DNA of 41,751 nucleotides from a virus. The position numbers and the translations under genes were made by a program. Positions within the stretch are counted from its first letter, which is position 1. The number at the start of each line of letters is the position of its first letter. The notes below the pieces were generated by a model. It saw nothing but the letters and a program-made list of their open reading frames with translations. It was not told the origin of the DNA and made no database searches. The stretch is from IMG/VR virus record IMGVR_UViG_3300021961_005306, positions 1 to 41,751 of that record. One strand, given 5' to 3'. Positions 26,764-39,817 of the stretch are shown piece after piece.

Positions 26764-26822
26764 GTGACACTCAAAGAACCTGCACACAGACGCTTGTGGA
26801 GGGGTCTCAGATGTGCAATACT
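26764..26822 (+). promoter_or_regulatory. Early cassette promoter
   Basis: TTGTGG (26794-26799), 17 bases, AATACT (26817-26822), preceded by GTGACAC and CCTGCACACAGACGC. This is the arrangement found repeatedly after 32.5 kb. It lies where the upstream gene's reading frame ends. Confidence 0.65.
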
Positions 26823-26826
26823 AACA

Positions 26827-27249
26827 ATGTCGAAACAGTCAACTATGACAACTGTTGAAAAGTACACAAAACTCCTCTGTAGTGCTCTTGTAGACGATTT
26901 CAAACACTACAGTATTAAGAGTAACTATCGTCATCTCCAAACTTCTATTCTTGATCGAGATCTTCCCTCCGTAGAATATCTCCAAGAACGTATCAAGGAG
27001 TATCGTGATGATGAACATCTCTATGAGTATATCGTAGAGTCTGGCAAGAAATATCACAAGGTCATTATGGTTACTCCTCAGGGTAATCGTTCTGTTCATT
27101 GTTTCGTTGATAAAGAGACTGGTGATGTCTACAAGGCAGCATCTTGGTCTAAACCCGCAAAGGGTATTCGTTTCAATCTTCTCGATGAAGAATCTCGTGA
27201 ACGTTGTCTGATGGTTTCTGATTGGGCAGGAGGTTATCTTTACAAATGA
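26827..27249 (+). CDS. Hypothetical protein (about 140 aa)
   Basis: The ORF could be read from 26749, but a promoter occupies that segment, so the ATG at 26827 (or 26845, MTTVEKYTKLL) is preferred. The product is helical at first (YTKLLCSALVDDFKHYSI, YLQERIKEYRDDEHLYEYIV). It ends with a beta-rich domain (HKVIMVTPQGNRSVHCFVDKETGDVYKAA). No family was recognised. It overlaps the next gene by 4 bases. Confidence 0.65.
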   Translation: MSKQSTMTTVEKYTKLLCSALVDDFKHYSIKSNYRHLQTSILDRDLPSVEYLQERIKEYRDDEHLYEYIVESGKKYHKVIMVTPQGNRSVHCFVDKETGDVYKAASWSKPAKGIRFNLLDEESRERCLMVSDWAGGYLYK

Positions 27250-27401
27250 AAACGTCTTACTGGTTTCTCGCAGTCATTGCCATTCTCATGTATAATGGTT
27301 TCTTGATTCAACGAGACAATAAAATGTTTGATGCATACGATCGTGCGTGTGCTGAACTGCCCACTGGGCATCCTGATTGTGTATTTGCTAAAAAGAAATG
27401 A
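27246..27401 (+). CDS. Small membrane protein (51 aa)
   Basis: It has an N-terminal membrane helix (SYWFLAVIAILMYNGFLI) and a periplasm-like tail with two Cys (RACAELPTGHPDCVFAKKK). It overlaps both neighbours by 4 bases. The two Cys and the small size recall spanin- or holin-type lysis proteins, but no family was recognised. Confidence 0.6.
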   Translation: MKTSYWFLAVIAILMYNGFLIQRDNKMFDAYDRACAELPTGHPDCVFAKKK

Positions 27402-27598
27402 TAAAACAAATTAAATCCCAATGGTACTATGTCTTCTGGGGTATCATGGCAGCAGCAGTATGTGGAGGTCAAGTGTATGTTGGTCTAGGTTATCGTGAGA
27501 TGGCAGAGGCAACAAAAGGCACTGACATTCGTGTATCATGTGAACTGCCTGTGATCCCATATGTGGAATCTGGAGGTAACCGATCGAACTTTGAATGA
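27398..27598 (+). CDS. Small membrane protein (66 aa)
   Basis: It has an N-terminal membrane segment after a short basic head (MIKQIKSQWYYVFWGIMAAAVCGGQVYVGL), and a short soluble tail with one Cys. It overlaps the RlpA-like gene by 4 bases. It may be a lysis partner or an anchor; this is not shown. Confidence 0.6.
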   Translation: MIKQIKSQWYYVFWGIMAAAVCGGQVYVGLGYREMAEATKGTDIRVSCELPVIPYVESGGNRSNFE

Positions 27599-27897
27599 TG
27601 ATTGCTTCTTTACTCTGTGGGATTGCAACTTTCTATGGTATGGGTGATGGTTTCCATGGGCAACGAACTGCTAACGGAGAAACATTTAATGCTTATCGTT
27701 GGACTGCTGCTCATCCTTACTTGCCTATGGGAACTAAGATTCGAGTCACAAACCAAGATAACGGAAAACAGGTAATCGTTCGTATTAACGATCGTGGACC
27801 GTATTCTCATGCAGATCTGGATCTAAGTTATGCAGCATTCGCTCACATTGAATCCACACGCAAAGGTAATGCAACTGTTTGCTATCGTGTGGTATAA
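27595..27897 (+). CDS. RlpA-like double-psi beta-barrel protein
   Basis: The 100-residue protein is nearly a bare RlpA domain. In order it has ATFYG (11-15), FHGQRTANGE (20-29), TAAH (37-40), LPMGTKIRVTN (43-53), VRINDRGPY (62-70) with the catalytic-type D66, and DLDLSYAAF (74-82). RlpA proteins are lytic transglycosylases acting on peptidoglycan stripped of stem peptides. Only a short hydrophobic N-terminus (MMIASLLCGIA) precedes the domain, so export is unclear. A role in host lysis or in wall opening is plausible next to three small membrane proteins. The stop codon overlaps a late promoter-like element. Confidence 0.88.
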   Translation: MMIASLLCGIATFYGMGDGFHGQRTANGETFNAYRWTAAHPYLPMGTKIRVTNQDNGKQVIVRINDRGPYSHADLDLSYAAFAHIESTRKGNATVCYRVV

Positions 27898-27903
27898 TAA
27901 ATA
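27896..27903 (+). promoter_or_regulatory. Late promoter-like element (AATAAATA)
   Basis: The octamer lies 22 bases before the ATG at 27925 and overlaps the upstream stop codon. Confidence 0.5.
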
Positions 27904-27924
27904 CGAGGAAATCTTTAATTGATT

Positions 27925-28188
27925 ATGGCAGACCAACAATTTCAAATTCATAAACAAGACAGACTTGAGAAGCAACTCAAGGCAACTATGAGTTCATTAG
28001 GTGAACTTGACAAACGACTTAATGATCTTGAAGGACTAGTAATGGCAACGATGACTAAGTTGCAGTCTGACAATGTTCAACTGTTTAGTCTATTCTCTAC
28101 ACTGAATGAGTCTAAAATTGCTCAAGAAAAGTTCAATCTCGCTGCTGTACCAGCAAACCCATCAGATGCACCTCCATCCGATAATTGA
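27925..28188 (+). CDS. Coiled-coil protein (87 aa)
   Basis: The ATG (MADQQFQIHKQDRLEKQLKA) is preferred over a TTG two codons earlier. Residues 8-70 form a heptad-rich helix (LEKQLKATMSSLGELDKRLNDLEGLV), followed by a Pro/Ala/Ser tail. It could be an oligomeric tail-associated protein. No family was recognised. Confidence 0.6.
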   Translation: MADQQFQIHKQDRLEKQLKATMSSLGELDKRLNDLEGLVMATMTKLQSDNVQLFSLFSTLNESKIAQEKFNLAAVPANPSDAPPSDN

Positions 28189-28203
28189 ACTGTCCACTAC
28201 CCA

Positions 28204-28232
28204 TTGACACCGAACACCTGAACATCTATACT
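28204..28232 (+). promoter_or_regulatory. Sigma70 promoter, strong
   Basis: TTGACA (28204-28209), 17 bases, TATACT (28227-28232); the ATG follows 14 bases later. The preceding ACTGTCCACTACC matches the recurring early cassette. Confidence 0.8.
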
Positions 28233-28246
28233 ATAAAGGTTCTCAA

Positions 28247-28399
28247 ATGGAAATCATGAACGACTTTGAATACGAGTACAACGACTTCGATGAGTTGTAC
28301 GCTTCGATGATGGAAACTGATCCTGAAGATTGGTTGCCTTCCTCTGGTATTCGTGAGGAGTTTGATCCTGAAACTCTCAAACTTCTCGCACAATTCTGA
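28247..28399 (+). CDS. Small acidic protein (50 aa)
   Basis: The product is strongly acidic (MEIMNDFEYEYNDFDELYAS, then MMETDPEDWLP) and helical, ending DPETLKLLAQF. It is the only gene between a strong promoter and a terminator, so it is likely to be expressed at high level as a monocistronic early message. Such DNA-mimic-like acidity is common in phage takeover proteins, but no function can be shown. Confidence 0.65.
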   Translation: MEIMNDFEYEYNDFDELYASMMETDPEDWLPSSGIREEFDPETLKLLAQF

Positions 28400-28421
28400 T
28401 ACTGTGCCAGTTTGATGAAGT

Positions 28422-28452
28422 GTCCACTGTCTCTTGACGGTGGACTTTTTTT
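28422..28452 (+). terminator. Intrinsic terminator
   Basis: GTCCACTGTC, loop TCTT, GACGGTGGAC (10 pairs, one U-G), then seven T. A possible promoter, TTGACG (28434-28439) with CATGAT (28457-28462), overlaps it and would serve the helicase. Confidence 0.88.
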
Positions 28453-28484
28453 ATGTCATGATACTTGTATTGAATTGATTTGAG

Positions 28485-29723
28485 ATGCAACTTCGTCCCC
28501 ATCAATCTCGTGCGTGTGATTCTATGATCGCATACGATAAAGGTCAAATTATCTTCCCTACTGGTGGCGGCAAGACTCTCACCATGATCTATGATCTGAT
28601 TGAGAACTGCAAATATATTGACAACGGAATGACTACCGTTGTTGTAGCGCCCCGCATCCTTCTTGCTGAACAACTGTCCGCAGAGTTTCTGGAGTTTGTT
28701 GATACTAAGTACACGCATGTGATGCACGTTCACAGTGGTGAAACGCATCACTTCTCTACTACTAATCCTGAGAAGATTGCACTGTTCAACAACACTGCTC
28801 GTGCTGCAGGTGAGAATGTTCTGATCTTCACCACTTACAACTCTCTCGATCGTATTCGTCTCGCAGATATTGAGGTGAATACTATCTACTTCGATGAGGC
28901 ACATAACAGTGTTAAGAAGAACTTCTTCCCTGCAACTGAACACTTCTCTTATGAGACTGATCGTTGCTATTTCTTCACTGCAACTCCCAAACATTCTCTG
29001 ACTCCCAACAAACCAGGGATGAACATTCCTGAGGTTTATGGTCAGGTTATTAGTAAAGTTCCTGCACCTGAGTTGATTCAGGGTGGATTCATTATCCCTC
29101 CTAAAGTTAAGGCAACCAAGATCTCTACTCTTATCTCTAACGTCGCAGATCGTGACTGTAAGATGATCATTGAAATCCTCCGTGATGAGGATAACATGGA
29201 GAAGGTCATGGTTGCAGCAAAGGCAACCAAACACATTCAGAACCTGATGACACAAACTCAGTTCATGCCACTGTGCAATGCACTGGGATATGATGTCCTC
29301 TGGATTACTGCAAAGTGGGGTGCATTTATCAACGGTCAGAAGGTCAATCGTGAAGTATTCTTCGATACGATGAATGAGTGGGGTCAAGATCCTACTCGCA
29401 AGTTTATCATGTTCCACCACAGCATTCTCTCTGAGGGTATCAATGTGAGTGGTCTTACTGCTTGCATCTTGATGCGTAATATGGATGTGATTACTATGGC
29501 ACAGACCATCGGACGTGTTATCCGTCTGAACAAAGATGATGCATCCGATCTTCGCACTGGTAAGATTGCCGCAGGTGATCTAGACCAGTATCGCAAACCT
29601 TTCGGTAAGATGTTTGTTCCTGTGTACTCCAACGTTGGTATCAGCACTCAACGTACTTTGCAGAACGTTGTTGACACCATCTTCTGTCAAGGTGAACCCG
29701 CTATCAGTAAGGTCCGCAAATGA
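28485..29723 (+). CDS. SF2 DNA/RNA helicase
   Basis: The 412-residue protein has the helicase motifs in order: LRPHQSRA near the start, Walker A IIFPTGGGKT (P25-T31), VVVAPRILLAEQL, DEAH (137-140), FFTATP (163-168) and QTIGRVIR (340-347). The architecture is that of the T4 UvsW/type III restriction-like SF2 group, which remodels branched DNA or translocates on DNA. It is shorter than T4 UvsW, so I do not give a symbol. Antisense frames are open for about 350 codons, an artefact of codon usage. It overlaps the next gene by 4 bases. Confidence 0.88.
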   Translation: MQLRPHQSRACDSMIAYDKGQIIFPTGGGKTLTMIYDLIENCKYIDNGMTTVVVAPRILLAEQLSAEFLEFVDTKYTHVMHVHSGETHHFSTTNPEKIALFNNTARAAGENVLIFTTYNSLDRIRLADIEVNTIYFDEAHNSVKKNFFPATEHFSYETDRCYFFTATPKHSLTPNKPGMNIPEVYGQVISKVPAPELIQGGFIIPPKVKATKISTLISNVADRDCKMIIEILRDEDNMEKVMVAAKATKHIQNLMTQTQFMPLCNALGYDVLWITAKWGAFINGQKVNREVFFDTMNEWGQDPTRKFIMFHHSILSEGINVSGLTACILMRNMDVITMAQTIGRVIRLNKDDASDLRTGKIAAGDLDQYRKPFGKMFVPVYSNVGISTQRTLQNVVDTIFCQGEPAISKVRK

Positions 29724-30082
29724 GTAGTTTCCAGTATACTCAATCAGACATTCTTGATCCACAATTTATGCTCTCCTGGGTCTCACCTGATGGGATGTGG
29801 GCGATCATTCCATGTGGAAAACAGTGGATGATTATACATCATGGACAACAGATGGAACTATCACGTTCATTTGATATTGCCATGCGTAAGGTAGAACAAA
29901 TGAAAAAGTCTCAATCTGGTTCGCGGAAACGTACAAAGACCCCTGTGACACCAAAATCACAGAAAAACACAAAATCTAATTTAACAGATCCCAGTGGTGG
30001 CAAGGGATCTGGGCGGTCGAGTGGACGGTCAGACAAACCGCACACCATTCCCACCAATCCCCTGCTAGATGCACTATCCTAA
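29720..30082 (+). CDS. Hypothetical protein with Gly/Ser/Arg-rich tail (120 aa)
   Basis: Residues 1-70 form a small globular domain (MLSWVSPDGMWAIIPCGKQWMIIHHGQQ). Residues 70-120 are disordered and basic (SGSRKRTKTPVTPKSQKN, GGKGSGRSSGRSDKP), which suggests nucleic-acid contact. The disordered part contains an 18-base sequence repeated at 35878. No family was recognised. Confidence 0.6.
   Translation: MSSFQYTQSDILDPQFMLSWVSPDGMWAIIPCGKQWMIIHHGQQMELSRSFDIAMRKVEQMKKSQSGSRKRTKTPVTPKSQKNTKSNLTDPSGGKGSGRSSGRSDKPHTIPTNPLLDALS
29993..30010 (+). repeat. 18-base repeat, copy 1 (in coding sequence)
   Basis: AGTGGTGGCAAGGGATCT, identical to 35878-35895. Here it is flanked by AGATCCC so that AGATCCC/GGGATCT can form a stem. 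Confidence 0.7.
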
Positions 30083-30101
30083 TCAAGTTGAGGTTAATCG
30101 A

Positions 30102-30314
30102 ATGACTACTAAAACCAAACGCATTTGTGTGAGTCCATTGTCTCGTAAGGCGAAGAATCGTTTCGCTAATGAGATGGATCTCTTCCACACTTGTACAGTA
30201 GAGGATACTCGTGACATGAATGGTGTTACTTGGATGTTCCTCAAGTCATTGAACGGTAACTACTTCTTCTGGGTGCCAGAAGGTGGTAGCAAAGACTGGA
30301 AAGTTGAACGGTGA
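30102..30314 (+). CDS. Small hypothetical protein (70 aa)
   Basis: The ATG at 30102 with TTGAGG upstream is preferred over an earlier ATG that would overlap the previous gene. The product has a basic N-terminus (MTTKTKRICVSPLSRKAKNRF) and a beta-rich end (WMFLKSLNGNYFFWV). The function is unknown. Confidence 0.6.
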   Translation: MTTKTKRICVSPLSRKAKNRFANEMDLFHTCTVEDTRDMNGVTWMFLKSLNGNYFFWVPEGGSKDWKVER

Positions 30315-30499
30315 GTCTACCACCTAGATTCAGTTCTACCATTCTAGGTGAACAACAGTTATCACTTCTTCGGATTCTGATACAGTCCGAGATCAAATAT
30401 GCTCTCATGGAACAACAGAATGCTGATCCAGATATGTTAGAACAACAGTCAGAGATCTGCAAGATTGTCTATGAGAATCTAGTCCAAATGTCCACATGA
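30311..30499 (+). CDS. Small helical protein (62 aa, GTG start)
   Basis: GTG overlaps the previous stop. The product contains STILGEQQLSLLRILIQSEI and a Gln/Glu-rich helix. It overlaps the next ORF by 4 bases. The function is unknown. Confidence 0.55.
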   Translation: MSLPPRFSSTILGEQQLSLLRILIQSEIKYALMEQQNADPDMLEQQSEICKIVYENLVQMST

Positions 30500-30786
30500 T
30501 TGATCTACCAAACTTCCCACATGAACCACCAGGAAAAGAGTATTTCTACGAGCAGGTATGCTTTAAACGTGATGTTGTTGCAGTGTACCTTGTATGCAAT
30601 CGTAGGTGGGTGTATAATGGTGGTGATCCCTCTCGTACTATCTGGGGATTCTACAACACCAAAACCCGCAAATATCACGCTCCAATCAACTCATCAAAGG
30701 TAGGAGATGTGGTGGACATTGATTCCACAACTCCCTACACTTCCATGCAGATTAAACTATCACCACTAGAGGCATTCTTCCAATGA
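30496..30786 (+). CDS. Hypothetical protein (96 aa)
   Basis: The product is beta-rich with many aromatics (YFYEQVCFKRDVVAVYLVCN, RTIWGFYNTKTRKYHAPINS) and ends PYTSMQIKLSPLEAFFQ. It looks like a compact conserved cyanophage protein. It overlaps both neighbours by 4 bases. The function is unknown. Confidence 0.65.
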   Translation: MIDLPNFPHEPPGKEYFYEQVCFKRDVVAVYLVCNRRWVYNGGDPSRTIWGFYNTKTRKYHAPINSSKVGDVVDIDSTTPYTSMQIKLSPLEAFFQ

Positions 30787-31010
30787 AAATGATCGACAAA
30801 ATCCGTGAACAGTGTATCGACATGCTTGAAGAGCAGTATGCAACAAGGATGGAGATTCTTGTCAATGAAGAACTCTACGATGATGCACAGGCGATAGTTC
30901 AAGAGATGGTAGTTAAGGAGTATGGTGATAACGAGGCCTGGAGTTTCGTTGATGATCTAACTGATTATGATGCAGATGAACTCGGTATGCTTCAGTGGGA
31001 GGAGGAGTGA
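30783..31010 (+). CDS. Small acidic helical protein (75 aa)
   Basis: The product is helical and acidic (KIREQCIDMLEEQYATRMEI, LYDDAQAIVQEMVVKEYGDN) with a very acidic C-terminus (DYDADELGMLQWEEE). It is coupled to both neighbours by overlapping stop/start codons. The function is unknown. Confidence 0.6.
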   Translation: MKMIDKIREQCIDMLEEQYATRMEILVNEELYDDAQAIVQEMVVKEYGDNEAWSFVDDLTDYDADELGMLQWEEE

Positions 31011-31141
31011 TGAAACGCAAGGAGAATAAAAGTCCAGAAGAGATTCTAGGTTCAACTTCCAATCATATTAAATACTTACATAAACTTAAGCAGGACCTCA
31101 AAAGGTATCCTAAGCGTAAGATTCGCAAACCAAAGAAGTAG
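31010..31141 (+). CDS. Small basic protein (43 aa)
   Basis: The start overlaps the previous stop (TGATG) and has GGAGGAG immediately upstream. The product is Lys/Arg-rich (LKQDLKRYPKRKIRKPKK), so nucleic-acid binding is possible. Confidence 0.5.
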   Translation: MKRKENKSPEEILGSTSNHIKYLHKLKQDLKRYPKRKIRKPKK

Positions 31142-31154
31142 AGTGTATCACCAC

Positions 31155-31313
31155 ATGTATCATCTTAATTGCCACCTAACCGAGGAACAGTATGAGGTTC
31201 TGAGTGATGCTCTCTACCATTATGGTGAGAGTATATCTGATGGATACAAAGACATTATTCTAGATCAACTGGAGACTATACTTGAAGAACGTGCAAGAAA
31301 AATCATCGTCTAA
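31155..31313 (+). CDS. Small helical hypothetical protein (52 aa)
   Basis: MYHLNCHLTEEQYEVLSDAL is followed by a second helix ending ERARKIIV. Its end overlaps the next ORF in another frame. The function is unknown. Confidence 0.5.
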   Translation: MYHLNCHLTEEQYEVLSDALYHYGESISDGYKDIILDQLETILEERARKIIV

Positions 31314-31473
31314 GTTTCCATACGAAACATTTCCAATTAGACTACAGCATAAAGATGATAAAAGAGTCTGCTGGTTTCAATGTCAAGACCATGCAGATAC
31401 ATATATCAAACGACACAAATTGAAAAAGACCCAGTATGTACTGGAGGTCAAGAAATCACCTCGCAAGGGGTGA
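31291..31473 (+). CDS. Small basic hypothetical protein (about 60 aa)
   Basis: Translation may start at GTG 31291 or TTG 31282; no ATG is available. The product reads VQEKSSSKFPYETFPIRLQH, then CWFQCQDHADTYIKRHKLKK, a compact domain with a basic tail. An intrinsic terminator covers its last codons. Confidence 0.5.
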   Translation: MQEKSSSKFPYETFPIRLQHKDDKRVCWFQCQDHADTYIKRHKLKKTQYVLEVKKSPRKG

Positions 31474-31480
31474 TTTTTTT
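31453..31480 (+). terminator. Intrinsic terminator
   Basis: AATCACC/GGTGATT stem around TCGCAAGG, followed by a run of T. It closes the helicase-linked operon that began near 28485. Confidence 0.82.
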
Positions 31481-31523
31481 GTATCAATTTGCATTTTATA
31501 TAAAAGCATTCAAAAAACACCAC

Positions 31524-31598
31524 TTGTAGCGATTTGGGTGTGACTATATAAAAACTGGCACAAGACCCCTTGATTGTGATTTCTGAATGGTTTAATAT
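31524..31598 (+). promoter_or_regulatory. Tandem sigma70 promoters
   Basis: Promoter 1 is TTGTAG (31524-31529), 17 bases, TATAAA (31547-31552). Promoter 2 is TTGATT (31570-31575), 17 bases, TAATAT (31593-31598). The second would start transcription at or next to the A of the ATG at 31605. Confidence 0.6.
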
Positions 31599-31604
31599 AA
31601 AACC

Positions 31605-32504
31605 ATGAAGAACACACACCTAGAGCATCCTGAAGACACGATTTTATATAATCGTGAGGCATTCAACAATATGTTGAGGTTTCTTCGTGAACGCAATAGC
31701 AAACTGTCTGTAAAGTGGGACGGTGCTCCTGCTATTGTGTTCGGTACTAATCCCGAGAATGGTAAGTTCTTTGTGGGAACTAAGAGTGTATTCAATAAGA
31801 AGAAGATCAAGATCAATTATACTCACAATGATATAGAAGTTTATCATGGCGATAAACCTCACGTCGCATCTATTCTTCATATGTGCATGGAGAAGTTGCC
31901 TAAGGTTCGTGGTGTTTATCAAGGAGATTTTATTGGTTTCGGTGGAACTGATACCTTTGAACCCAATACTATAATGTATAAGTTTCCTGAAGAAGTCAAC
32001 CAATCCATTGTATTTGCTGCACATACCAGTTATGATGGCAATACAATGAAGGAGATGTGTGCATCTTTTGGTGCGGCATATTATATTCGAGAGAATGCCT
32101 TTGATGTGAAGTTTGTGAACACCAATGCATATGTTACCTCCCGTAGTCGTAGAGTTGATTGTCTTCTTACTCTTGCAGGTATGGTTAGCAATTTTGTTAG
32201 ATTCCCTGGAGAAAAAGAAGGACAAGAACTGAAAGTTGCAGTCAATAAGTGTATTCGTTTGCAACAGGATATTGACTGTGCAGGTATGTCTAAGATGCAA
32301 ACTTATCTCTACAAACTTATCATTCAGATCAAGCATTTGTTGATGGAAGGATTCTCCTCCTATGAGAACGTTCAGTGTATGTTTGAGGGTGTAGATTGTG
32401 AGCATGAGGGTTATGTTATGTCCAACCAGTTTGGTGCATTTAAGTTGGTGAATCGCCGTGAGTTTTCATACCGTAATTTCACCAAGAAAAAGAACTGGGT
32501 GTGA
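31605..32504 (+). CDS. Ligase-like nucleotidyltransferase
   Basis: The 299-residue protein carries motifs of the covalent nucleotidyltransferase (RNA/DNA ligase) superfamily. They are KWDGAPAIVFG (motif I, K37 as candidate AMP acceptor), GVYQGDFIGFG (motif III/IIIa region, 103-113), EHEGYVM (motif IV, E268-G-x-V) and FGAFKLVNRREF (motif V, K280). The distance between motifs III and IV is large because of a helical insert (about 185-260). There is no separate OB fold after motif V, so it is a minimal core. It may repair tRNA or DNA, or modify a phage protein by adenylylation. I believe related cyanophage genes are listed as a DUF family, but cannot check this. Nothing resembling a Shine-Dalgarno precedes the ATG. 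Confidence 0.7.
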   Translation: MKNTHLEHPEDTILYNREAFNNMLRFLRERNSKLSVKWDGAPAIVFGTNPENGKFFVGTKSVFNKKKIKINYTHNDIEVYHGDKPHVASILHMCMEKLPKVRGVYQGDFIGFGGTDTFEPNTIMYKFPEEVNQSIVFAAHTSYDGNTMKEMCASFGAAYYIRENAFDVKFVNTNAYVTSRSRRVDCLLTLAGMVSNFVRFPGEKEGQELKVAVNKCIRLQQDIDCAGMSKMQTYLYKLIIQIKHLLMEGFSSYENVQCMFEGVDCEHEGYVMSNQFGAFKLVNRREFSYRNFTKKKNWV

Positions 32505-32558
32505 CAGTTGCCGAACTGCACACTACCGCTTGCAATCGGCACCGATCGGTGCAATACT
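32501..32558 (+). promoter_or_regulatory. Early cassette promoter
   Basis: GTGACAGTTGCCGAACTGCAC, then CCGC, TTGCAA (32530-32535), 17 bases, AATACT (32553-32558). The leader TATAAGAGTCAAAGGAACAC carries the ribosome-binding AAAGGA. The -35 region starts at the preceding stop codon. Confidence 0.75.
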
Positions 32559-32581
32559 ATAAGAGTCAAAGGAACACACAC

Positions 32582-33011: not shown

Positions 33012-33209
33012 ATGCAAATCAACGAAAGATTGAACCAAGTTATTGACAACCTTACCAAGGCAGTTAATGTATGTTATGAGGTAGATAGTAGTTGTGAGGA
33101 TACAGAGAAATCTTATCCTTTTGCCACTGGTTATTCTAAGTCTGCAATGAATGTTGCAATTCAAGATCTAAGAATTATCATGGATTATCTGAACTCGGAT
33201 AACTATTAG
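33012..33209 (+). CDS. Small helical protein (65 aa)
   Basis: MQINERLNQVIDNLTKAVNV with a second helix (SAMNVAIQDLRIIMDYLNSD). It follows the previous gene by 4 bases in a different frame, so an apparent longer ORF through this region is not used. The function is unknown. Confidence 0.6.
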   Translation: MQINERLNQVIDNLTKAVNVCYEVDSSCEDTEKSYPFATGYSKSAMNVAIQDLRIIMDYLNSDNY

Positions 33210-33266
33210 GACAGTTGACGTGCTGGCACACTACCGCTTGTGGTGTGCCCCATTTCATGCAATACT
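33210..33266 (+). promoter_or_regulatory. Early cassette promoter
   Basis: GACAGTTGACGTGCTGGCAC, then CCGC, TTGTGG (33238-33243), 17 bases, AATACT (33261-33266). The leader is AAAAGAGTCAAAGAAACAC. Confidence 0.75.
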
Positions 33267-33291
33267 AAAAGAGTCAAAGAAACACACACAA

Positions 33292-33564: not shown

Positions 33565-33755
33565 TTATGAACACTGGTTACACTCTCAACCGAGTTAATT
33601 TCACTAAGGATGAGGAAACTTGCATCCTTAAGTTTCTCAACCATGCACGAGAATGTGGGTATCCTAGTGCTAACGAACCATGGTATTCAGTCATTGACAG
33701 TATCATCCGAAAGTATTATGATTCTAATGTAAAAGAATACCAATCTCCACTGTGA
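33561..33755 (+). CDS. Small hypothetical protein (64 aa)
   Basis: The product (MNTGYTLNRVNFTKDEETCI from the third codon) continues with helical segments (LKFLNHARECGYPSANEPWY). It overlaps the previous gene by 4 bases. The function is unknown. Confidence 0.6.
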   Translation: MIMNTGYTLNRVNFTKDEETCILKFLNHARECGYPSANEPWYSVIDSIIRKYYDSNVKEYQSPL

Positions 33756-33809
33756 CAGTTGCCGAACTGCACACCATTTCCCCCATTGGGGTCGATTCTG
33801 TGTCATATT
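33753..33809 (+). promoter_or_regulatory. Early cassette promoter, divergent -10
   Basis: TGACAGTTGCCGAACTGCAC matches the upstream block of the 32.5 kb copy exactly. The rest is CCATTTCCCCCATTGGGG and CATATT (33804-33809). No -35 stands at 17 bases, and the ATG is only 6 bases past the -10. Confidence 0.55.
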
Positions 33810-33815
33810 AGGATC

Positions 33816-34136
33816 ATGGAAAACAACGCAACTCAAATGTCACTCTTTCGTCAAGGTTGGAAGGCAGAAGTATATTTTGGCAGTGAGTTGACTGCTCACC
33901 ACCTGAACACTCGTTCGGTGTATCGTTTCAAAGAGAATAGCGACATTGCTATCACTCACTCTGCAAAGTATGTTGATGATGGATCTGTGGATGTCTTCAC
34001 AGTTTCTTATCGTAAAGAGATCAATCCTCGTCACTCGGTTACTGAAACTGTTGAGACTTTTGATAACTGGTTGGATGCATACTACTGCGGTGTGCAGTGT
34101 GTGAACAACCTGAACATGGACCTCATCGCTAACTGA
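33816..34136 (+). CDS. Hypothetical protein (106 aa)
   Basis: The ATG follows the -10 element closely, so the message may be leaderless. The product is MENNATQMSLFRQGWKAEVY, a beta-rich body and a hydrophobic/aromatic end (FDNWLDAYYCGVQCVNNLNM). The function is unknown. Confidence 0.65.
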   Translation: MENNATQMSLFRQGWKAEVYFGSELTAHHLNTRSVYRFKENSDIAITHSAKYVDDGSVDVFTVSYRKEINPRHSVTETVETFDNWLDAYYCGVQCVNNLNMDLIAN

Positions 34137-34141
34137 AACTC

Positions 34142-34282
34142 ATGCGAATCGCACTCCTGATTGCTACACTCGCTCTTGGATGTAAGGTTGGTCTTGCTGC
34201 TCATGCAACAGTCAATGAGTTTCAAGAAATGCAGGCAGATCGCTTCTGCCAAGTTGATCCTAACTACTGCAACGCAAAATGA
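34142..34282 (+). CDS. Small exported or membrane protein (46 aa)
   Basis: It has an N-terminal hydrophobic segment (MRIALLIATLALGCKVGLAA) with a Cys that could make a weak lipobox (ALGC), and a short polar tail with two Cys. It overlaps the next gene by 4 bases. The function is unknown. Confidence 0.55.
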   Translation: MRIALLIATLALGCKVGLAAHATVNEFQEMQADRFCQVDPNYCNAK

Positions 34283-34730: not shown

Positions 34731-34736
34731 AATTGT

Positions 34737-34792
34737 GACAGTTATCGTACTGTCCACCATCGCTTGATTTCCGCACCGATCGGTGCAATACT
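34737..34792 (+). promoter_or_regulatory. Early cassette promoter
   Basis: GACAGT-TATCGT-ACTGTC inverted repeat, then CACCATCGC, TTGATT (34764-34769), 17 bases, AATACT (34787-34792). Between the boxes is GCACCGATCGGTGC, identical to the 32.5 kb copy. The leader TATAAGAGTCAAAGGAATCGC follows. Confidence 0.78.
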
Positions 34793-34817
34793 ATAAGAGT
34801 CAAAGGAATCGCATCAA

Positions 34818-35066
34818 ATGCAACTCACCTCCAAAGATGGCAACATGGTTGTTGACTTCTACCCCGTCAAGTTCCACGATGGAACTATCAACGAGTCCCG
34901 CATGATTAAGATTGTTTCGTTCATGGGTGGCACTCAATCTAAGTCTCTCATTAACAAGAAAGACTTCCAACGTGAGGTAGATTCTCGCGTCGAAGGTTAC
35001 GGTTACGATGTAACTGGGTTCAACGAGATTCCCCAGTTTCAAGGTGCTCTCGGGATGGCATGTTGA
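34818..35066 (+). CDS. Small hypothetical protein (82 aa)
   Basis: MQLTSKDGNMVVDFYPVKFH with a central basic helix (QSKSLINKKDFQREVDSRVE). It starts at the ATG after the cassette leader. The function is unknown. Confidence 0.65.
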   Translation: MQLTSKDGNMVVDFYPVKFHDGTINESRMIKIVSFMGGTQSKSLINKKDFQREVDSRVEGYGYDVTGFNEIPQFQGALGMAC

Positions 35067-35108
35067 TGTAAAACAATGTCCCTAATCAAACAACATTTGT
35101 ATAACAAA

Positions 35109-35309
35109 ATGCAATTCCAAGTTACTGACATCGAGTTTGATTTTGACTCTGATGATGATGACTTTCCTGAGCATGAGTTTAGTAACATTACCGACGAAAC
35201 TGTTGGTATGATTTGGGAAGCGGATGATGAAGATGATCTCATCGAAGAGATAACAGCAGCAACAGGATTTTGCATCAAAACTATCAACTATCGTCACGTT
35301 CTTAACTAA
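35109..35309 (+). CDS. Small very acidic protein (66 aa)
   Basis: I chose the internal ATG (MQFQVTDIEFDFDSDDDDFP), because this opening and the segment IWEADDEDDLIEEITAATGF match a small protein I know from many cyanophages. An upstream ATG (35076) adds 11 residues. Its charge suggests a protein-binding or DNA-mimic role, but none is shown. Confidence 0.65.
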   Translation: MQFQVTDIEFDFDSDDDDFPEHEFSNITDETVGMIWEADDEDDLIEEITAATGFCIKTINYRHVLN

Positions 35310-35311
35310 CA

Positions 35312-35482
35312 ATGACAATGCACACTTCCTACACTGATCGATACTCTGTCGAAGAGGCATATGATGGAGATTGGGATGATATTATGTCCCCAGATGCCTA
35401 CGAAGAGTATATTGAACGCAAACAGTTTGCTAAGTCGAACGGATACGCTTATCCTGCTTATCGTACACTGCACAACTACTAA
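35312..35482 (+). CDS. Small hypothetical protein (56 aa)
   Basis: The product starts MTMHTSYTDRYSVEEAYDGD, then acidic helices, and ends in a Tyr-rich segment (SNGYAYPAYRTLHNY). It follows the previous gene by 2 bases. The function is unknown. Confidence 0.55.
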   Translation: MTMHTSYTDRYSVEEAYDGDWDDIMSPDAYEEYIERKQFAKSNGYAYPAYRTLHNY

Positions 35483-35509
35483 TTTGCTACACTAATCTGA
35501 GGAACTATC

Positions 35510-35782
35510 ATGCTCAAGAAAGTATCATCCAACAAGGAAACTCCTTCTCCTGTTGTAGTGAACAAAGGAAAGCATGGGTATAACTGTTGGGTGTATGTAA
35601 GCACGATTCAGAAGAATCAAAACACTTACCATAAGTATAAAGTTGCCCACACATTTAAGAAAAAGTTTGTATCTAGGGAGGATGCACTTCTGTATGGTTG
35701 GGCAAAGATTAACGGATACAATGAGACAACGTTTGATGTACCAATGCGCCACAAGCCAAAGCATGATTTAGTAACAATCTAG
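35510..35782 (+). CDS. Small basic protein (90 aa)
   Basis: The product is Lys-rich (MLKKVSSNKETPSPVVVNKG; KVAHTFKKKFVSREDALLYG) with a conserved-looking YNCWVYVST strand. GAGGAAC precedes the ATG. It could bind nucleic acid, but no domain was recognised. Confidence 0.6.
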   Translation: MLKKVSSNKETPSPVVVNKGKHGYNCWVYVSTIQKNQNTYHKYKVAHTFKKKFVSREDALLYGWAKINGYNETTFDVPMRHKPKHDLVTI

Positions 35783-35812
35783 TTTGCTACACTTTCGCTT
35801 TTTTTGAGATCG

Positions 35813-35843
35813 GGGGCGTCGGGGATGACCTGATGCCCCTTTT
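35813..35843 (+). terminator. Intrinsic terminator
   Basis: GGGGCGTC pairs with GATGCCCC (8 pairs, one G-U) and is followed by four T. A seven-T run stands just upstream. Confidence 0.65.
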
Positions 35844-35877
35844 CAGTAAAATTGCAGGTTTTTGCTGTTTTTGATCT

Positions 35878-35895
35878 AGTGGTGGCAAGGGATCT
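35878..35895 (+). repeat. 18-base repeat, copy 2 (non-coding)
   Basis: AGTGGTGGCAAGGGATCT, identical to 29993-30010. It lies in a 250-base non-coding gap. The rest of that gap (35896-35960) holds no ORF. Confidence 0.7.
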
Positions 35896-35959
35896 CAGCG
35901 AGACAAATGTGAGACCTGCCAGGATACCACGAGACTAGGACAAAACGCAGCATGTGCCA

Positions 35960-36011
35960 ATCCACAAGGCGCACACCATTCTCCCCATTGGTCGCCATTT
36001 GCTGCAATACT
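35960..36011 (+). promoter_or_regulatory. Early cassette promoter, CCCCATTGG subtype
   Basis: CGCACACCATTCTCCCCATTG, then CCATTTGCTGC and AATACT (36006-36011). It lacks a -35 at normal distance but shares CCCCATTGG and CCATTTGCTGCAATACTAAG with the copy at 36.3 kb. Confidence 0.55.
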
Positions 36012-36033
36012 AAGATCAATCAAACGAAACGAA

Positions 36034-36246
36034 ATGAACCTCTATATCATCAACAACGTCCTCTCTGATTATACCTCTGGCATGTGTGTGATTGCTGCTG
36101 AATCGAAAGAACAATGCCGCGAATTGTTTATCTCTGAGTTCAGTGAGTATCATGCTGATGATTTCGATAAGTGGGGCAAGTTCACTGTCATCGAAAATGT
36201 GCAACATCCTGCTGGTGTTGTAGAGTATGTGTATGGAGGAGGTTAG
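36034..36246 (+). CDS. Small hypothetical protein (70 aa)
   Basis: MNLYIINNVLSDYTSGMCVI, then an acidic helix (ESKEQCRELFISEFSEYHAD) and a Val-rich end. The function is unknown; the fold may be small alpha/beta. Confidence 0.65.
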   Translation: MNLYIINNVLSDYTSGMCVIAAESKEQCRELFISEFSEYHADDFDKWGKFTVIENVQHPAGVVEYVYGGG

Positions 36247-36257
36247 TAAAGAGAAAT

Positions 36258-36316
36258 TGTGACAGTCGGCAGAGTGTCCACCATTTCCCCCATTGGTCCC
36301 CATTTGCTGCAATACT
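36258..36316 (+). promoter_or_regulatory. Early cassette promoter, CCCCATTGG subtype
   Basis: GTGACAGTCGGCAGAGTGTCC, ACCATTTCCCCCATTGGTCC, CCATTTGCTGC and AATACT (36311-36316), then the leader AAGAGAGTCAAAGAAC. Confidence 0.65.
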
Positions 36317-36340
36317 AAGAGAGTCAAAGAACGCCACGCA

Positions 36341-36574
36341 ATGCACGCTCTTCAAACCATGTCCTTCGCTGATCGTGAAATGTTTGCTTACAACAACTAT
36401 CAGGAGCGTAAGCAACAACAACTCGCTGCAATCGCACCTGAGTTGCGTATCAAATACTGCTTCGAGTTCCTGGAGCAATATGTTGCCGAAGGTGATGATC
36501 TGATGGCAGCAAAGTGTTACGATGGTATCGCTAAGTACAGCGACGTTCTTGACTACTCTGAGGCACATTACTGA
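36341..36574 (+). CDS. Small helical protein (77 aa)
   Basis: The start is the ATG after the leader (MHALQTMSFADREMFAYNNY). The body is helical with Gln/Glu-rich stretches (YQERKQQQLAAIAPELRI). Its last base begins the next micro-ORF. The function is unknown. Confidence 0.65.
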   Translation: MHALQTMSFADREMFAYNNYQERKQQQLAAIAPELRIKYCFEFLEQYVAEGDDLMAAKCYDGIAKYSDVLDYSEAHY

Positions 36575-36627
36575 TGACAACTGTTCTTCTTGGTTCACTA
36601 ATCATTCTCTGGTTCTTTACGAAATGA
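36574..36627 (+). CDS. Possible membrane micropeptide (17 aa)
   Basis: MTTVLLGSLIILWFFTK fills the gap between two genes exactly. It starts in the TGATG of the previous stop and ends in the ATGA of the next start. The sequence is a single membrane-length hydrophobic stretch with a polar N-terminus. It could be real or only a link for translational coupling. Confidence 0.4.
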   Translation: MTTVLLGSLIILWFFTK

Positions 36628-36809
36628 CTATCACCAAAGCACAAGCACTTTCACAGTTCAAGTATAACTGGAAAGTCGAAACATTGCGTACCAAATGGAA
36701 TAAAGATCTGGTTGCAAAACGTGAAGCATGGAATAACTTCACCGATGCACTTTGCAAAGAAGGATATATTACTGCATCGCAATATGATCGTTGGTCTAAC
36801 CCTTTCTGA
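36624..36809 (+). CDS. Small helical protein (61 aa)
   Basis: The start is the ATG in the ATGA overlap (MTITKAQALSQFKYNWKVET). The product is basic and Trp-rich (WNKDLVAKREAWNNFTDALC). The function is unknown. Confidence 0.6.
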   Translation: MTITKAQALSQFKYNWKVETLRTKWNKDLVAKREAWNNFTDALCKEGYITASQYDRWSNPF

Positions 36810-36824
36810 ACACACAAACAAACA

Positions 36825-37151
36825 ATGGAACTGACACAATCCTTTCCTCCTGTTGATGCCATGATCGAGAAACTCTCTGGTGTTGACTATAAGAAACAAC
36901 TGAATAAGTACATGGACATTGTTGAAACAATCTGTGTCTATGTTGCTGCAATCGCTACTGTCCTCATCGAAAAGATTCAAACTATGAAACTCACCACTCC
37001 TGACAAGTTCACCAAGTTCTTCTATCTTAACATCAACTTCCGTGCTACATCTGGTGATGAGATTATCGGTTTGAGTGTTGGCAATCGTTACATCGGTTTG
37101 TATAGCGATTCGATCAACTGGGGGATTCTAGACGAGAACGGCGCACTGTGA
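36825..37151 (+). CDS. Hypothetical protein (108 aa)
   Basis: MELTQSFPPVDAMIEKLSGV is followed by a hydrophobic helix (ICVYVAAIATVLIEKIQ) and a beta-rich end. An intrinsic terminator follows the stop by 3 bases. The function is unknown. Confidence 0.65.
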   Translation: MELTQSFPPVDAMIEKLSGVDYKKQLNKYMDIVETICVYVAAIATVLIEKIQTMKLTTPDKFTKFFYLNINFRATSGDEIIGLSVGNRYIGLYSDSINWGILDENGAL

Positions 37152-37154
37152 AGC

Positions 37155-37188
37155 AAAGGTGGACAGTCTTTGAACTGTCCACCTTTTT
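37155..37188 (+). terminator. Intrinsic terminator in the early cassette
   Basis: AAAGGTGGACAGT, loop CTTTGA, ACTGTCCACCTTT form a perfect 13-pair stem that runs into TTTTT. It is the clearest example of the GGACAGT-N6-ACTGTCC element present in weaker form at other copies. Confidence 0.9.
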
Positions 37189-37217
37189 CCCCAAAGGCAC
37201 CTGAAAGGTGCAATACT
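37189..37217 (+). promoter_or_regulatory. Early cassette promoter
   Basis: CCCCAAAGGCACCTGAAAGG, then TGC and AATACT (37212-37217). There is no good -35. The leader TATAAGAGTCAAAGGAATTG matches the other copies. Confidence 0.6.
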
Positions 37218-37243
37218 ATAAGAGTCAAAGGAATTGAACCCAA

Positions 37244-37462
37244 ATGACTTTCACTGATGCACTGATTGCCGCAGGTTATGTATTCGATGATGAGAATTAT
37301 GATGGTTGTTATGTAAAACAAGACTCTGCAGGTTTCATTCACTGTTATCAAGAAAATGCAGATGATGAGACTGACACTCTCTGGAATTATGTAAAGATGT
37401 CTGATGATTTTGATGTTATCACTGAGGTAACTTTCAATCCCGAAACTGACACCATCAACTGA
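37244..37462 (+). CDS. Small acidic protein (72 aa)
   Basis: MTFTDALIAAGYVFDDENYD and a strongly acidic middle (QENADDETDTLWNYVKMSDD). The start is the ATG after the leader. The function is unknown. Confidence 0.65.
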   Translation: MTFTDALIAAGYVFDDENYDGCYVKQDSAGFIHCYQENADDETDTLWNYVKMSDDFDVITEVTFNPETDTIN

Positions 37463-37470
37463 GAATTAAC

Positions 37471-37647
37471 ATGAAAACGTTCTACATCTCTGACGGCACT
37501 TTGTATCGCAATCGTCGCATGAGTAAGGTTGCATTGAGTGCATCTGATCGTTACTATTTGCGAAAGACGACATCATTTATTGATCGCGTCTGGGTGTATT
37601 TTAGTGGGATCGAAGATGACTTCCGTTTGCTTCATATGCCAATGTGA
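37471..37647 (+). CDS. Small basic protein (58 aa)
   Basis: MKTFYISDGTLYRNRRMSKV, then an aromatic/basic body (RKTTSFIDRVWVYFSGIEDD). It follows the previous gene by 8 bases and ends in a cassette terminator remnant. The function is unknown. Confidence 0.55.
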   Translation: MKTFYISDGTLYRNRRMSKVALSASDRYYLRKTTSFIDRVWVYFSGIEDDFRLLHMPM

Positions 37648-37693
37648 GAACTGTCCACCTTTTTCCCCAAACGCACTCAAAAGGTGCAATACT
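37648..37693 (+). promoter_or_regulatory. Early cassette promoter
   Basis: GAACTGTCCACCTTTTTCCC, CGCACTCAAAAGGTGC and AATACT (37688-37693), then TATAAGAGTCAAAGGAATCGC. It is nearly identical to the copy at 37.2 kb from ACTGTCC onward, but lacks the left arm of the hairpin. Confidence 0.65.
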
Positions 37694-37719
37694 ATAAGAG
37701 TCAAAGGAATCGCACTTAA

Positions 37720-37902
37720 ATGTCTCAACAACTCTCCGCAACAATCTATCGTCAACTGTTCACAGATGTTGAGTGGGATGCTATTTGTTCTGCGATGAAA
37801 GATTATGCAGATTATGGTGATGAAGAGTCTGCGATTGCCGACTCGATTGATGCAAAGATCACCAACATTTTTCGTCTGACCGATAACAATGTCACGGCGT
37901 AA
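37720..37902 (+). CDS. Small acidic protein (60 aa)
   Basis: MSQQLSATIYRQLFTDVEWD, continuing with an acidic helix (MKDYADYGDEESAIADSIDA). It starts after the leader. The function is unknown. Confidence 0.65.
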   Translation: MSQQLSATIYRQLFTDVEWDAICSAMKDYADYGDEESAIADSIDAKITNIFRLTDNNVTA

Positions 37903-37930
37903 GTATCTTACATTCAAGTCACCTAATCGC

Positions 37931-38044
37931 ATGAAAGTTCTAGGATTAGTTTTCATTTTGTTCTTCATCTTTAGTCCATCTGTTCGATACACTACGGGTG
38001 AAGTCTTTCACTTTGTAGGTAACACCATTCAAGGAAACAACTGA
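37931..38044 (+). CDS. Small membrane protein (37 aa)
   Basis: MKVLGLVFILFFIFSPSVRY is a membrane segment followed by a short polar tail. The MKVLGL start resembles a small cyanophage membrane protein I recall. A longer frame from 37889 would overlap the upstream gene. The function is unknown. Confidence 0.55.
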   Translation: MKVLGLVFILFFIFSPSVRYTTGEVFHFVGNTIQGNN

Positions 38045-38051
38045 GGACATT

Positions 38052-38228
38052 ATGTACATCGAAACTGACGAAGATCTGTTCAATCAAGCAATCGAAGTGA
38101 TGGAATTGTTAGAAGATTCTGTCGAGTATATTTGTGATGATCAGAAACTCTCTGGAGAGAAAGTATGGACAATGATTCATGAATTGTCACTGGCGAAGTT
38201 ACAACAATTCCCTTCCTATGATGACTGA
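38052..38228 (+). CDS. Small acidic helical protein (58 aa)
   Basis: MYIETDEDLFNQAIEVMELL, then DSVEYICDDQKLSGEKVWTM and a final helix. It overlaps the next gene by 11 bases. The function is unknown. Confidence 0.55.
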   Translation: MYIETDEDLFNQAIEVMELLEDSVEYICDDQKLSGEKVWTMIHELSLAKLQQFPSYDD

Positions 38229-38394
38229 AACCTTTCGCGTTCAAGTAGAAACCAACGACGGATGTTGTACCATTTGGTATGAACAATCTCGTGCAAAGAA
38301 TGCTTGTGATAAGATTCACAATCGCGTTCTTGATCAACTCGCTGGATTGAATCTTAAGAGAGTTGAAGTATCTCTGTCCCCTGCAACTATCTGA
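38218..38394 (+). CDS. Small hypothetical protein (58 aa)
   Basis: Two consecutive ATG codons are possible starts (MMTETFRVQVETNDGCCTIW). The fold looks alpha/beta with a helix (AKNACDKIHNRVLDQLAGLN). The function is unknown. Confidence 0.6.
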   Translation: MMTETFRVQVETNDGCCTIWYEQSRAKNACDKIHNRVLDQLAGLNLKRVEVSLSPATI

Positions 38395-38400
38395 TCTCCA

Positions 38401-38613
38401 ATGACACTCACTCAACCACAGATTGATAAACTGATTGAAGTCTATGCCACGGACATTGTTGATGGCATGGACATGCGTGATTTGTGTCAGTTTGCGATTG
38501 ACATGATTTGCTCTAATATGTGTGAGTACACTGAGGATGAATTAAAGAGTGAAATCAGTGAGATTTATGATGAAGAATATTGGGGCAATCTGGTGAATGA
38601 GGTAACTGAATAA
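38401..38613 (+). CDS. Small acidic protein (70 aa)
   Basis: MTLTQPQIDKLIEVYATDIV with helices and an acidic C-terminal half (EYTEDELKSEISEIYDEEYW). It resembles small cyanophage early proteins of unknown function. Confidence 0.65.
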   Translation: MTLTQPQIDKLIEVYATDIVDGMDMRDLCQFAIDMICSNMCEYTEDELKSEISEIYDEEYWGNLVNEVTE

Positions 38614-38614
38614 G

Positions 38615-38761
38615 ATGCGTATTGTCACCACTTACAACACACTCACAAGGGAAAAAGAGTACACAATTCTATACAGTAATGGAACAATCTTTTCATCTAA
38701 TTCTTTACTCCCAATAATCTCATTGCTTCAACCATCTTATACGAATCTCCCAGACAATTAA
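38615..38761 (+). CDS. Small hypothetical protein (48 aa)
   Basis: MRIVTTYNTLTREKEYTILY with a Ser/Leu-rich second half (LLPIISLLQPSYTNLPDN). It stands 1 base after the previous gene. The function is unknown. Confidence 0.5.
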   Translation: MRIVTTYNTLTREKEYTILYSNGTIFSSNSLLPIISLLQPSYTNLPDN

Positions 38762-38777
38762 CGCGCGCCGCTTCATC

Positions 38778-38924
38778 ATGAAACTCAAAGGATCTGCTAA
38801 CTGGACTACAGGAAAGAACTCACAAAAGTTATACAATGAGATCGTGAAGTTTCTTAATCATGAAGAACAAACTGCCATGAGCAAAGTGTATCTAAATGTT
38901 GACAATAGGTTAAAACGTGTATAA
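38778..38924 (+). CDS. Small basic protein (48 aa)
   Basis: MKLKGSANWTTGKNSQKLYN, a helical stretch and a basic end (VDNRLKRV). Its last codons contain the -35 and -10 region of the next promoter. The function is unknown. Confidence 0.5.
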   Translation: MKLKGSANWTTGKNSQKLYNEIVKFLNHEEQTAMSKVYLNVDNRLKRV

Positions 38925-38927
38925 AAT
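38899..38927 (+). promoter_or_regulatory. Sigma70 promoter
   Basis: TTGACA (38899-38904), 17 bases, TAAAAT (38922-38927). It overlaps the end of the upstream gene and serves the gene at 38953. Confidence 0.7.
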
Positions 38928-38952
38928 ACTATAGTGTTAATTAACCCCTCTC

Positions 38953-39147
38953 ATGTTACTTTCTAAACCGCAAGTTACTCGCTACCGTGTTACACTTGAC
39001 TTCACTGTTGATGATACAAACTGTGTGCATCCTCGTGATTGGAATTGGAAGGAATTGCTTGAACTGAAAGGTAATGAAAAAGTCAAGGAAGTTTATGTAG
39101 AAAACCTTGGCACTTATAATGTAAAGGGAGGGAAGAAGAATGGATGA
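38953..39147 (+). CDS. Small hypothetical protein (64 aa)
   Basis: MLLSKPQVTRYRVTLDFTVD, then a conserved-looking DWNWKELLELKGNEKVKEVY. It has a beta-alpha-beta pattern. It overlaps the next ORF by 8 bases. The function is unknown. Confidence 0.6.
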   Translation: MLLSKPQVTRYRVTLDFTVDDTNCVHPRDWNWKELLELKGNEKVKEVYVENLGTYNVKGGKKNG

Positions 39148-39238
39148 AGATCAACAAGAACTCGAAGAAGAGTGCTTAACTGAGTATGATGATTGTGTTG
39201 AGTATGATGTCATCGTAGATCTTGATTATGACCCCTAG
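39140..39238 (+). CDS. Very acidic small protein (32 aa)
   Basis: AGGGAGGG stands upstream. The product is almost half Asp/Glu (MDEDQQELEEECLTEYDDCV). It overlaps both neighbours. Confidence 0.45.
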   Translation: MDEDQQELEEECLTEYDDCVEYDVIVDLDYDP

Positions 39239-39455
39239 AAAGAATACATCTGCCTGGCGTCTCTGGTGTTATGCATTAGGACAAAAGACAGGAAAGACTA
39301 ATAAGGAGGCAGATACAGTTGCAGTTATTCGCACTGTTATTCTTGCCTCCTATTTTATTACTAATGTTGCCATCGTTTCTAATGCTGTACGACACTGGAA
39401 TGATGGTCAGAGTGATGGTAACTGTGTTGAATTAAAGTATAATAAAAATGGCTAA
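39228..39455 (+). CDS. Small membrane protein (75 aa)
   Basis: The ATG (MTPRKNTSAWRLWCYALGQK) is preferred over an upstream TTG. ALGQKTGKTNKEADTVAVIR followed by a membrane helix (TVILASYFITNVAIVSNAV) matches a small membrane protein I recall from cyanophages. The function is unknown. Confidence 0.65.
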   Translation: MTPRKNTSAWRLWCYALGQKTGKTNKEADTVAVIRTVILASYFITNVAIVSNAVRHWNDGQSDGNCVELKYNKNG

Positions 39456-39621
39456 AAAAACGTAGTTGAGTGTTTTATCTCGATGATACTTATGCTGTGT
39501 TTTTATGGTCTCAGGAGTCGTTATCTTAGCGGGCAGGCTACCACAAGACCTCCGAAATGTCAAGAGACTCGGAGCAACTCCCAGACCCCCCATATAAGAG
39601 ATCCTCATAGTAGCAAATGAC

Positions 39622-39650
39622 TTGACACATCTCAGAGAATTGTGTATACT
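39622..39650 (+). promoter_or_regulatory. Sigma70 promoter without a close gene
   Basis: TTGACA (39622-39627), 17 bases, TATACT (39645-39650). The first gene downstream starts 168 bases later, so a long leader or a small RNA is possible. Confidence 0.75.
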
Positions 39651-39722
39651 TACTCTGTGGAGTTTCAAAGGTGATTTGAGTAGCTATGGCTATCATACTC
39701 TGAGACCTTCTGGGAGCAGCAG

Positions 39723-39779
39723 TGGACAGTTTGTGAAGTGAACACAAAAGCCCCACAAGACCCTAGAGTGGTGTATTCT
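39723..39779 (+). promoter_or_regulatory. Early cassette promoter
   Basis: TGGACAGTTTGTGAAGTG, CCCCACAAGACCC and TATTCT (39774-39779), followed by the standard leader ATAAGAGTCAAAGGAACAC. There is no clear -35. Confidence 0.6.
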
Positions 39780-39817
39780 ATAAGAGTCAAAGGAACACAC
39801 ACAAACCACTCAGACAC

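Follow-up and report, generated by a model that had tools for sequence, protein, structure and literature searches.

We analyzed a recurring intergenic cassette in a 41,751-base virus record, IMGVR_UViG_3300021961_005306 (the whole stretch is called the window below). The window is probably a fragment of a larger genome, because its relatives are ~170 kb long. Its similarity is restricted to T4-like phages of Synechococcus and Prochlorococcus, and it encodes a UvsW-like helicase (28485–29723; its orthologue is annotated UvsW) as well as a baseplate hub protein, which together identify it as a cyanomyovirus. We propose, with a probability of about 0.78, that the cassettes are modular transcription-unit boundaries of this T4-like cyanomyovirus and also joints for module exchange: a cassette probably both starts transcription and serves as a matching edge for swapping neighboring gene modules. 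The repeat family, its position, spacing and orientation, the co-variation of its terminators, and one chimeric junction were computed here.

In the proposed arrangement, a cassette of ~75 bases occupies the space that separates two neighboring genes. Its 5′ end carries a palindrome termed block 1 and often overlaps the preceding stop codon. The middle would be a host-sigma-70-type promoter (extended −10 TGC-AATACT, often with TTG at 17 bp), and the 3′ end a leader of ~20–25 bases with the ribosome site AAAGGAA, ahead of the next ATG. In a subset of copies, the intrinsic terminator of the upstream unit would be folded into the promoter, placing the T-run in the spacer and the −35 in or at the loop; the end of one unit would then coincide with the start of the next. 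Homologous recombination between copies would add, delete or exchange modules of cassette plus gene, including DNA methyltransferase modules; we suggest this route because the same cassette precedes many unrelated genes in one orientation.

A cassette family in T4-like cyanophages

The core GCAATACTATAAGAGTCAAAGGAA, searched with ≤ 3 mismatches, matches the window five times, always on the + strand, compared with 0 matches in 100 dinucleotide shuffles, and a 20-base core gives six matches on the + strand, none on the − strand and none with the reversed-pattern control. In IMG/VR, the exact core matches 97 stretches, and the copy at 34735–34815, used as a query, hits 863 places in 274 phage records, exclusively from cyanophages. 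A profile search of ~1 Mb of phage sequence recovered 430 copies across 113 sequences; reversed-pattern controls returned zero matches. The family is found throughout Synechococcus T4-like phages.

All 92 sequences with at least two copies carry them in a single orientation, palindromes matching both strands aside. Across 16 complete phage genomes and the window, all copies of a sequence share a strand, and almost every copy falls within a single cluster of small genes 10–17 kb long, where most genomes hold 5–11 copies; Syn9 has seven cassettes, positioned between genes. The original prediction, made from the window alone, described a recurring promoter and leader before many genes, and the motif search over the whole window and related phages bore this out, with the same region concerned in relatives. 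The exceptions to the block rule are S-PM2, which lacks the family and is an exception among its relatives, and the Prochlorococcus phage P-SSM4, which has two weak copies. A weak P-SSM4 copy (L251, 151180–151330) is distant from the usual block, and the open reading frame (ORF) after it resembles, at its start, the DUF6267 protein at 31605–32504 of the window.

The cassette profile has zero matches in 151 host-family genomes. The core was not found in 84,980 prokaryote genomes, and a host origin was rejected on this ground. A single short plasmid match, in Polaromonas, was put down to chance. An Rfam scan returned no family above its threshold within the cassette region.

Predicted promoters and terminators at gene boundaries

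The cassette core is a predicted sigma-70-type extended −10 promoter plus a leader with a ribosome site. Nearly all aligned copies have an extended −10, mostly TGC-AATACT or TGC-CATACT, and TTG stands exactly 17 bases 5′ of it in 121 of 197 copies, compared with 0–12 at any other spacing. Of 394 copies, 382 are followed by a long ATG-initiated ORF no more than 80 bases away, at a median of 12 bases past the profile end; about half of random positions pass the loose 80-base criterion, without the tight distance. On the other side, the stop codon of the preceding gene recurs at two offsets: of 303 copies, 83 have it inside block 1 (TGA in GTGACAG) and 40 have it at CAGTTGA. Cassettes in annotated phage records occupy the gaps between coding sequences.

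Hairpins resembling intrinsic terminators, with a T-run, occur in 44 of 252 distinct copies, against four after shuffling. For 34 of these 44, the hairpin loop contains or touches the −35 TTG, and the promoter spacer is taken up by the T-run, as in AGACCCCT-TGAC-AGGGGTCT-TTTTTT. There are 19 different 5′ arms, every one with a matching 3′ arm, and pairing between the arms on either side of the −35 far exceeds that of re-dealt arms (z −10.9; co-variation and breakpoint tests were run on related sequences, which makes their z and p values indicative). The spacer dyad GCACC..GGTGC, the first of two cassette subtypes originally distinguished, shows weaker co-variation (z −5.3), and most copies have a spacer dyad only, or none.

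Exchange of gene modules

The genes after cassettes belong to 56 unrelated protein clusters (ORF clusters were called mechanically), and 34 cassette pairs that are ≥ 90% identical stand before different genes. The clearest junction comes from S-RIM12 isolates. Np_15_0310 carries a 1.39-kb module consisting of a cassette, an ORF of 208 amino acids (aa), an N6/N4 DNA methylase and another cassette. Both genes are missing from RW_01_0310 and RW_06_0310, which have a single cassette instead, and this cassette is chimeric: it equals the left Np_15_0310 copy through GTGCCATACT (to the −10) and the right copy beyond. To judge by these sequences, the chimera marks a recombination event in which a two-gene methyltransferase module was gained or lost between isolates. 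The 208-aa partner has no Pfam, PADLOC or credible PDB match, so we do not call it a restriction enzyme.

In Np_22_1112, a different type II methylase module, cassette-bordered too, takes the place of the sequence leading up to the uvsW cassette; elsewhere this sequence includes a methylase of the Dam type and a protein with a PD-(D/E)XK domain, among others. Over eight comparisons, 15 of 69 indel breakpoints lie inside cassettes, against 5.3 expected (p 0.0025).

Among S-RIM12 isolates, the cassette-bordered region ahead of uvsW is occupied or joined by differing methyltransferase modules (L121:7568–10147, L149:6581–7932, L155:8245–9607). Their partner ORFs are uncharacterised, one of them having a PD-(D/E)XK domain.

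Cassette copies in the window

The sequence-only profile finds 11 copies on the + strand of the window (26763, 28403, 32500, 33210, 33751, 34734, 35953, 36258, 37162, 37637 and 39725); the 37162 copy, being palindromic, also matches on the − strand and accounts for a twelfth match. The copies, with one partial copy, are as follows.

26763–26834, +, cassette copy: −35 TTGTGG, 17-base spacer, TGC-AATACT (26817–26822); before the DUF7717 ORF, which probably starts at 26827 or 26845
28186–28247, +, partial copy: block 1 (right half only), TTGACA-N17-TATACT; start of a 50-aa ORF 28247
28403–28474, +, cassette copy: block 1, hairpin, T7; −35 TTGACG (28434–28439), −10 CATGAT (28457–28462); before uvsW at 28485
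32500–32574, +, cassette copy: −35 TTGCAA, spacer palindrome GCACCGATCGGTGC, −10 AATACT (32553–32558), leader; ORF start 32582
33207–33282, +, cassette copy: −35 TTGTGG; ORF start 33292
33751–33821, +, cassette copy: CCCCATTGG subtype, −10 (CATATT) and leader diverged; ORF start 33816 or 33836
34734–34808, +, cassette copy: −35 TTGATT, spacer palindrome, leader; ORF start 34818
35953–36024, +, cassette copy: CCCCATTGG subtype; ORF start 36034
36258–36332, +, cassette copy: CCCCATTGG subtype; ORF start 36341
37155–37233, +, cassette copy: block 1 a 13-pair hairpin with T-run (intrinsic terminator); ORF start 37244
37637–37709, +, cassette copy: left arm of block 1 degenerate; ORF start 37720
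39722–39795, +, cassette copy: shortened −10 (GTGT-ATTCT), full leader; ORF start 39818

The original prediction listed ten full copies, each of which was found in place, and overlooked the one at 28403–28474 before uvsW. Its partial copy near 28190 scores below the profile threshold, although a clean TTGACA-N17-TATACT promoter is present there. A TTG at 17-base spacing does occur in four of the ten (26764, 32501, 33210 and 34737), and the two subtypes are real, GCACCGATCGGTGC in 32501 and 34737 and CCCCATTGG in 33753, 35960 and 36258. Other elements are less uniform than described: the leader TAAGAGTCAAAGGAA is exact in five copies, near-exact in 33210 and 36258 and strongly diverged in 26764, 33753 and 35960, and the exact block 1 form ACAGT-N6-ACTGTCCACC is present among the ten only at 34738 and 37163.

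Two copies in the window have terminator-like hairpins. The hairpin at 37155, which uses block 1 itself, has the 13 pairs noted earlier (−20.7 kcal/mol, z −6.0), followed by a T-run. The 28403 copy is of the −35-loop type: its hairpin GTCCACTGTC-TCTT-GACGGTGGAC (28422–28445; −18 kcal/mol, z −7.0) precedes T7, and the −35 TTGACG straddles the loop.

Block 1 and alternative explanations

The consensus of block 1 is the palindrome TGTG[AC]CAGTT-N4–6-AA[CG]TG-N1–2-CAC, which folds better than shuffled sequence and, at 37155, forms a perfect hairpin with a T-run. The cassettes could accordingly be read as ordinary terminator-then-promoter spacers, in which block 1 terminates the upstream gene in every copy and the promoter is unrelated; the original prediction likewise took block 1 for a general terminator. 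This is unlikely. The arms of an RNA stem should change together, and those of block 1 do not: the variable pair (columns 16/25) is G-C in 106 copies, G-G in 91, C-G in 15 and C-C in 13, and pairing energy is no better than with re-dealt right arms (z −1.4), so that these two tests rule out a conserved RNA hairpin. Block 1 gives a hairpin plus T-run in only 4 of 252 copies, and in the window only 37155 and, through a different hairpin, 28403 are terminator-like. The left arm also keeps a near-fixed distance of 52–54 to the −10, which a free-standing terminator would not need; together with the independent variation of the arms, this points to a DNA site more than to a terminator. Block 1 is probably a sequence-specific site, conserved as sequence and not as a hairpin, for a putative binding protein.

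A further explanation builds on this site: block 1 might be a dimeric DNA-binding site centered near −53 that activates or represses the promoters, the cassettes forming a regulon. In its favor are a half-site, TGTGNCASTT, present on each side, strong conservation that comes without co-variation, the near-constant distance to the −10 and the near confinement of the strict palindrome to cassettes (0 control matches in ~2.8 Mb of phage DNA; one promoterless site in S-PM2). The binder, however, is putative, and stop-codon provision (TGA in GTGACAG) could account for part of the conservation. The host does not use the site: its three matches in 151 host-family genomes are about chance level, which rules out a host transcription-factor or operator site, and from near confinement to phage cassettes we infer that the putative binder is more likely phage- than host-encoded. 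We regard a regulon as a serious contender with slightly less than even odds. The S-PM2 palindrome, TGTGCCACTTTTTGAACTGGCACA (L249, 20050–20300), resembles block 1 and has no cassette promoter after it.

A Syn9 transcriptome study by Doron (ISME J, 2016) reportedly assigned early genes a novel element and middle genes host-like promoters, the regulatory elements being conserved, it is said, across T4-like cyanophages. The cassette may be one of these elements, in which case the Syn9 work would already cover part of the novelty. The cassettes might also be the host-like promoters of middle genes, with the early class using another element, given that they are sigma-70-like and that uvsW and methyltransferase genes follow them. 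Most cassette genes, however, are small unknowns in a hypervariable block, as is typical of early regions, and the Syn9 early element could equally be block 1; we consider middle-gene promoters possible, a shade less so than a regulon. A self-mobile or MITE-like repeat that transposes would explain many copies per genome ahead of unrelated genes, but is very improbable given the fixed orientation and gene-boundary position, closest relatives that mostly precede the same gene, and a chimeric junction of the homologous recombination type; terminal repeats or target duplications were not noticed in the cassette alignments.

Several observations weigh against modular boundaries that double as exchange joints. 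A sizeable minority of copies lacks the −35 TTG and has CCCCAA or CCCCAT in its place, and 208 of 252 copies have no recognisable terminator. Breakpoint enrichment is moderate, with most indel ends outside cassettes. The original picture of a spreading module is supported by the unrelated clusters, the near-identical pairs and the chimeric cassette, but the nearest relative of 160 of 260 copies stands before the same gene (family) in another phage, so most copies were inherited with the gene and mobility is occasional. Promoter activity and its timing (the original prediction assigned the cassettes to early genes), termination, and the block 1 binder are predictions from sequence.

Relation to known systems

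Promoter-early stem-loop (PeSL) cassettes have reportedly been described in the T4-like phages RB49/phi1, PST and nt-1 (by Arbiol in 2010 and Comeau in 2014). They consist of a sigma-70-like promoter and a stem-loop repeated between small variable genes, and their copies recombine, shuffling genes. The cyanophage cassette is best filed as a counterpart of these, to judge by shared architecture: a predicted sigma-70-type promoter, clustering in a block of small variable genes, and recombination between copies, as in the S-RIM12 chimera and the breakpoint enrichment. On the stem-loop trait the copies are divided: a minority has a terminator-like hairpin, the others for the most part a spacer dyad or none. 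RB49 promoters have a palindrome that fills the 17-base spacer (TTGACA GGGGATCGGTGATCCCC TATAAT), as do cyanophage copies such as TTGATT TCCGCACCGATCGGTGC AATACT.

Block 1 and the extended −10, in contrast, belong to the cyanophage copies, a subset of which also has T-run terminators with the −35 in or at the loop; none of the RB49 promoters listed showed such a terminator. Searching RB49 with the cyanophage profile gave no match at E up to 10, so the kinship is architectural rather than demonstrated descent; the published PeSL definition does not strictly require common descent. A bolder proposal is that, independently of coliphage PeSLs, cyanomyoviruses evolved a fused terminator-promoter (the −35 as loop, the T-run as spacer) and a phage operator (block 1) with a phage DNA-binding protein, the cassette being the exchange joint for methyltransferase and other modules in ocean phages; we advance this only tentatively and rank it below middle-gene promoters in probability. 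A published study judged S-PM2 poor in PeSLs and questioned whether they play a part in this phage (PMC4503421).

As in T4, whose early promoters have sigma-70-type hexamers and are read by host RNA polymerase, the cyanophage promoters are predicted to be sigma-70-type; unlike in T4, promoter, leader and boundary form one repeated cassette. Homologues of alt, modA, modB, motA and asi are missing from cyanomyoviruses, whose early transcription control has been described as unclear (PMC2984593). Repeated intergenic elements also act as promoters in another tailed virus, halovirus HF2 (PMC8707807); this is an archaeal virus, and its likeness to the cyanophage cassette is one of description.

Other features of the window

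A tmRNA gene lies at 7037–7333 on the + strand (Rfam cyano_tmRNA, 194 bits, E 9e-55), adjoined by five tRNA genes at 6088–6398 and 7536–7608. The sole long minus-strand ORF (20337–21938, 533 aa) is flanked by plus-strand genes and has a weak PHROG match. Two further plus-strand ORFs encode a 539-aa protein (22189–23808) whose C-terminus is similar to endonuclease VII/HNH nucleases and a 100-aa protein (27595–27897), possibly RlpA-like, matching a PHROG labelled lipoprotein precursor.

Significance

The cassette provides a concrete, searchable marker of gene-module boundaries in one of the most abundant groups of ocean phages. It offers a mechanism by which variable regions would gain and lose genes such as those for DNA methyltransferases, and suggests that promoter-plus-stem-loop swapping extends beyond enterobacterial and vibrio T4-like phages. 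The compact predicted terminator with the −35 in its loop would be an unusual design.

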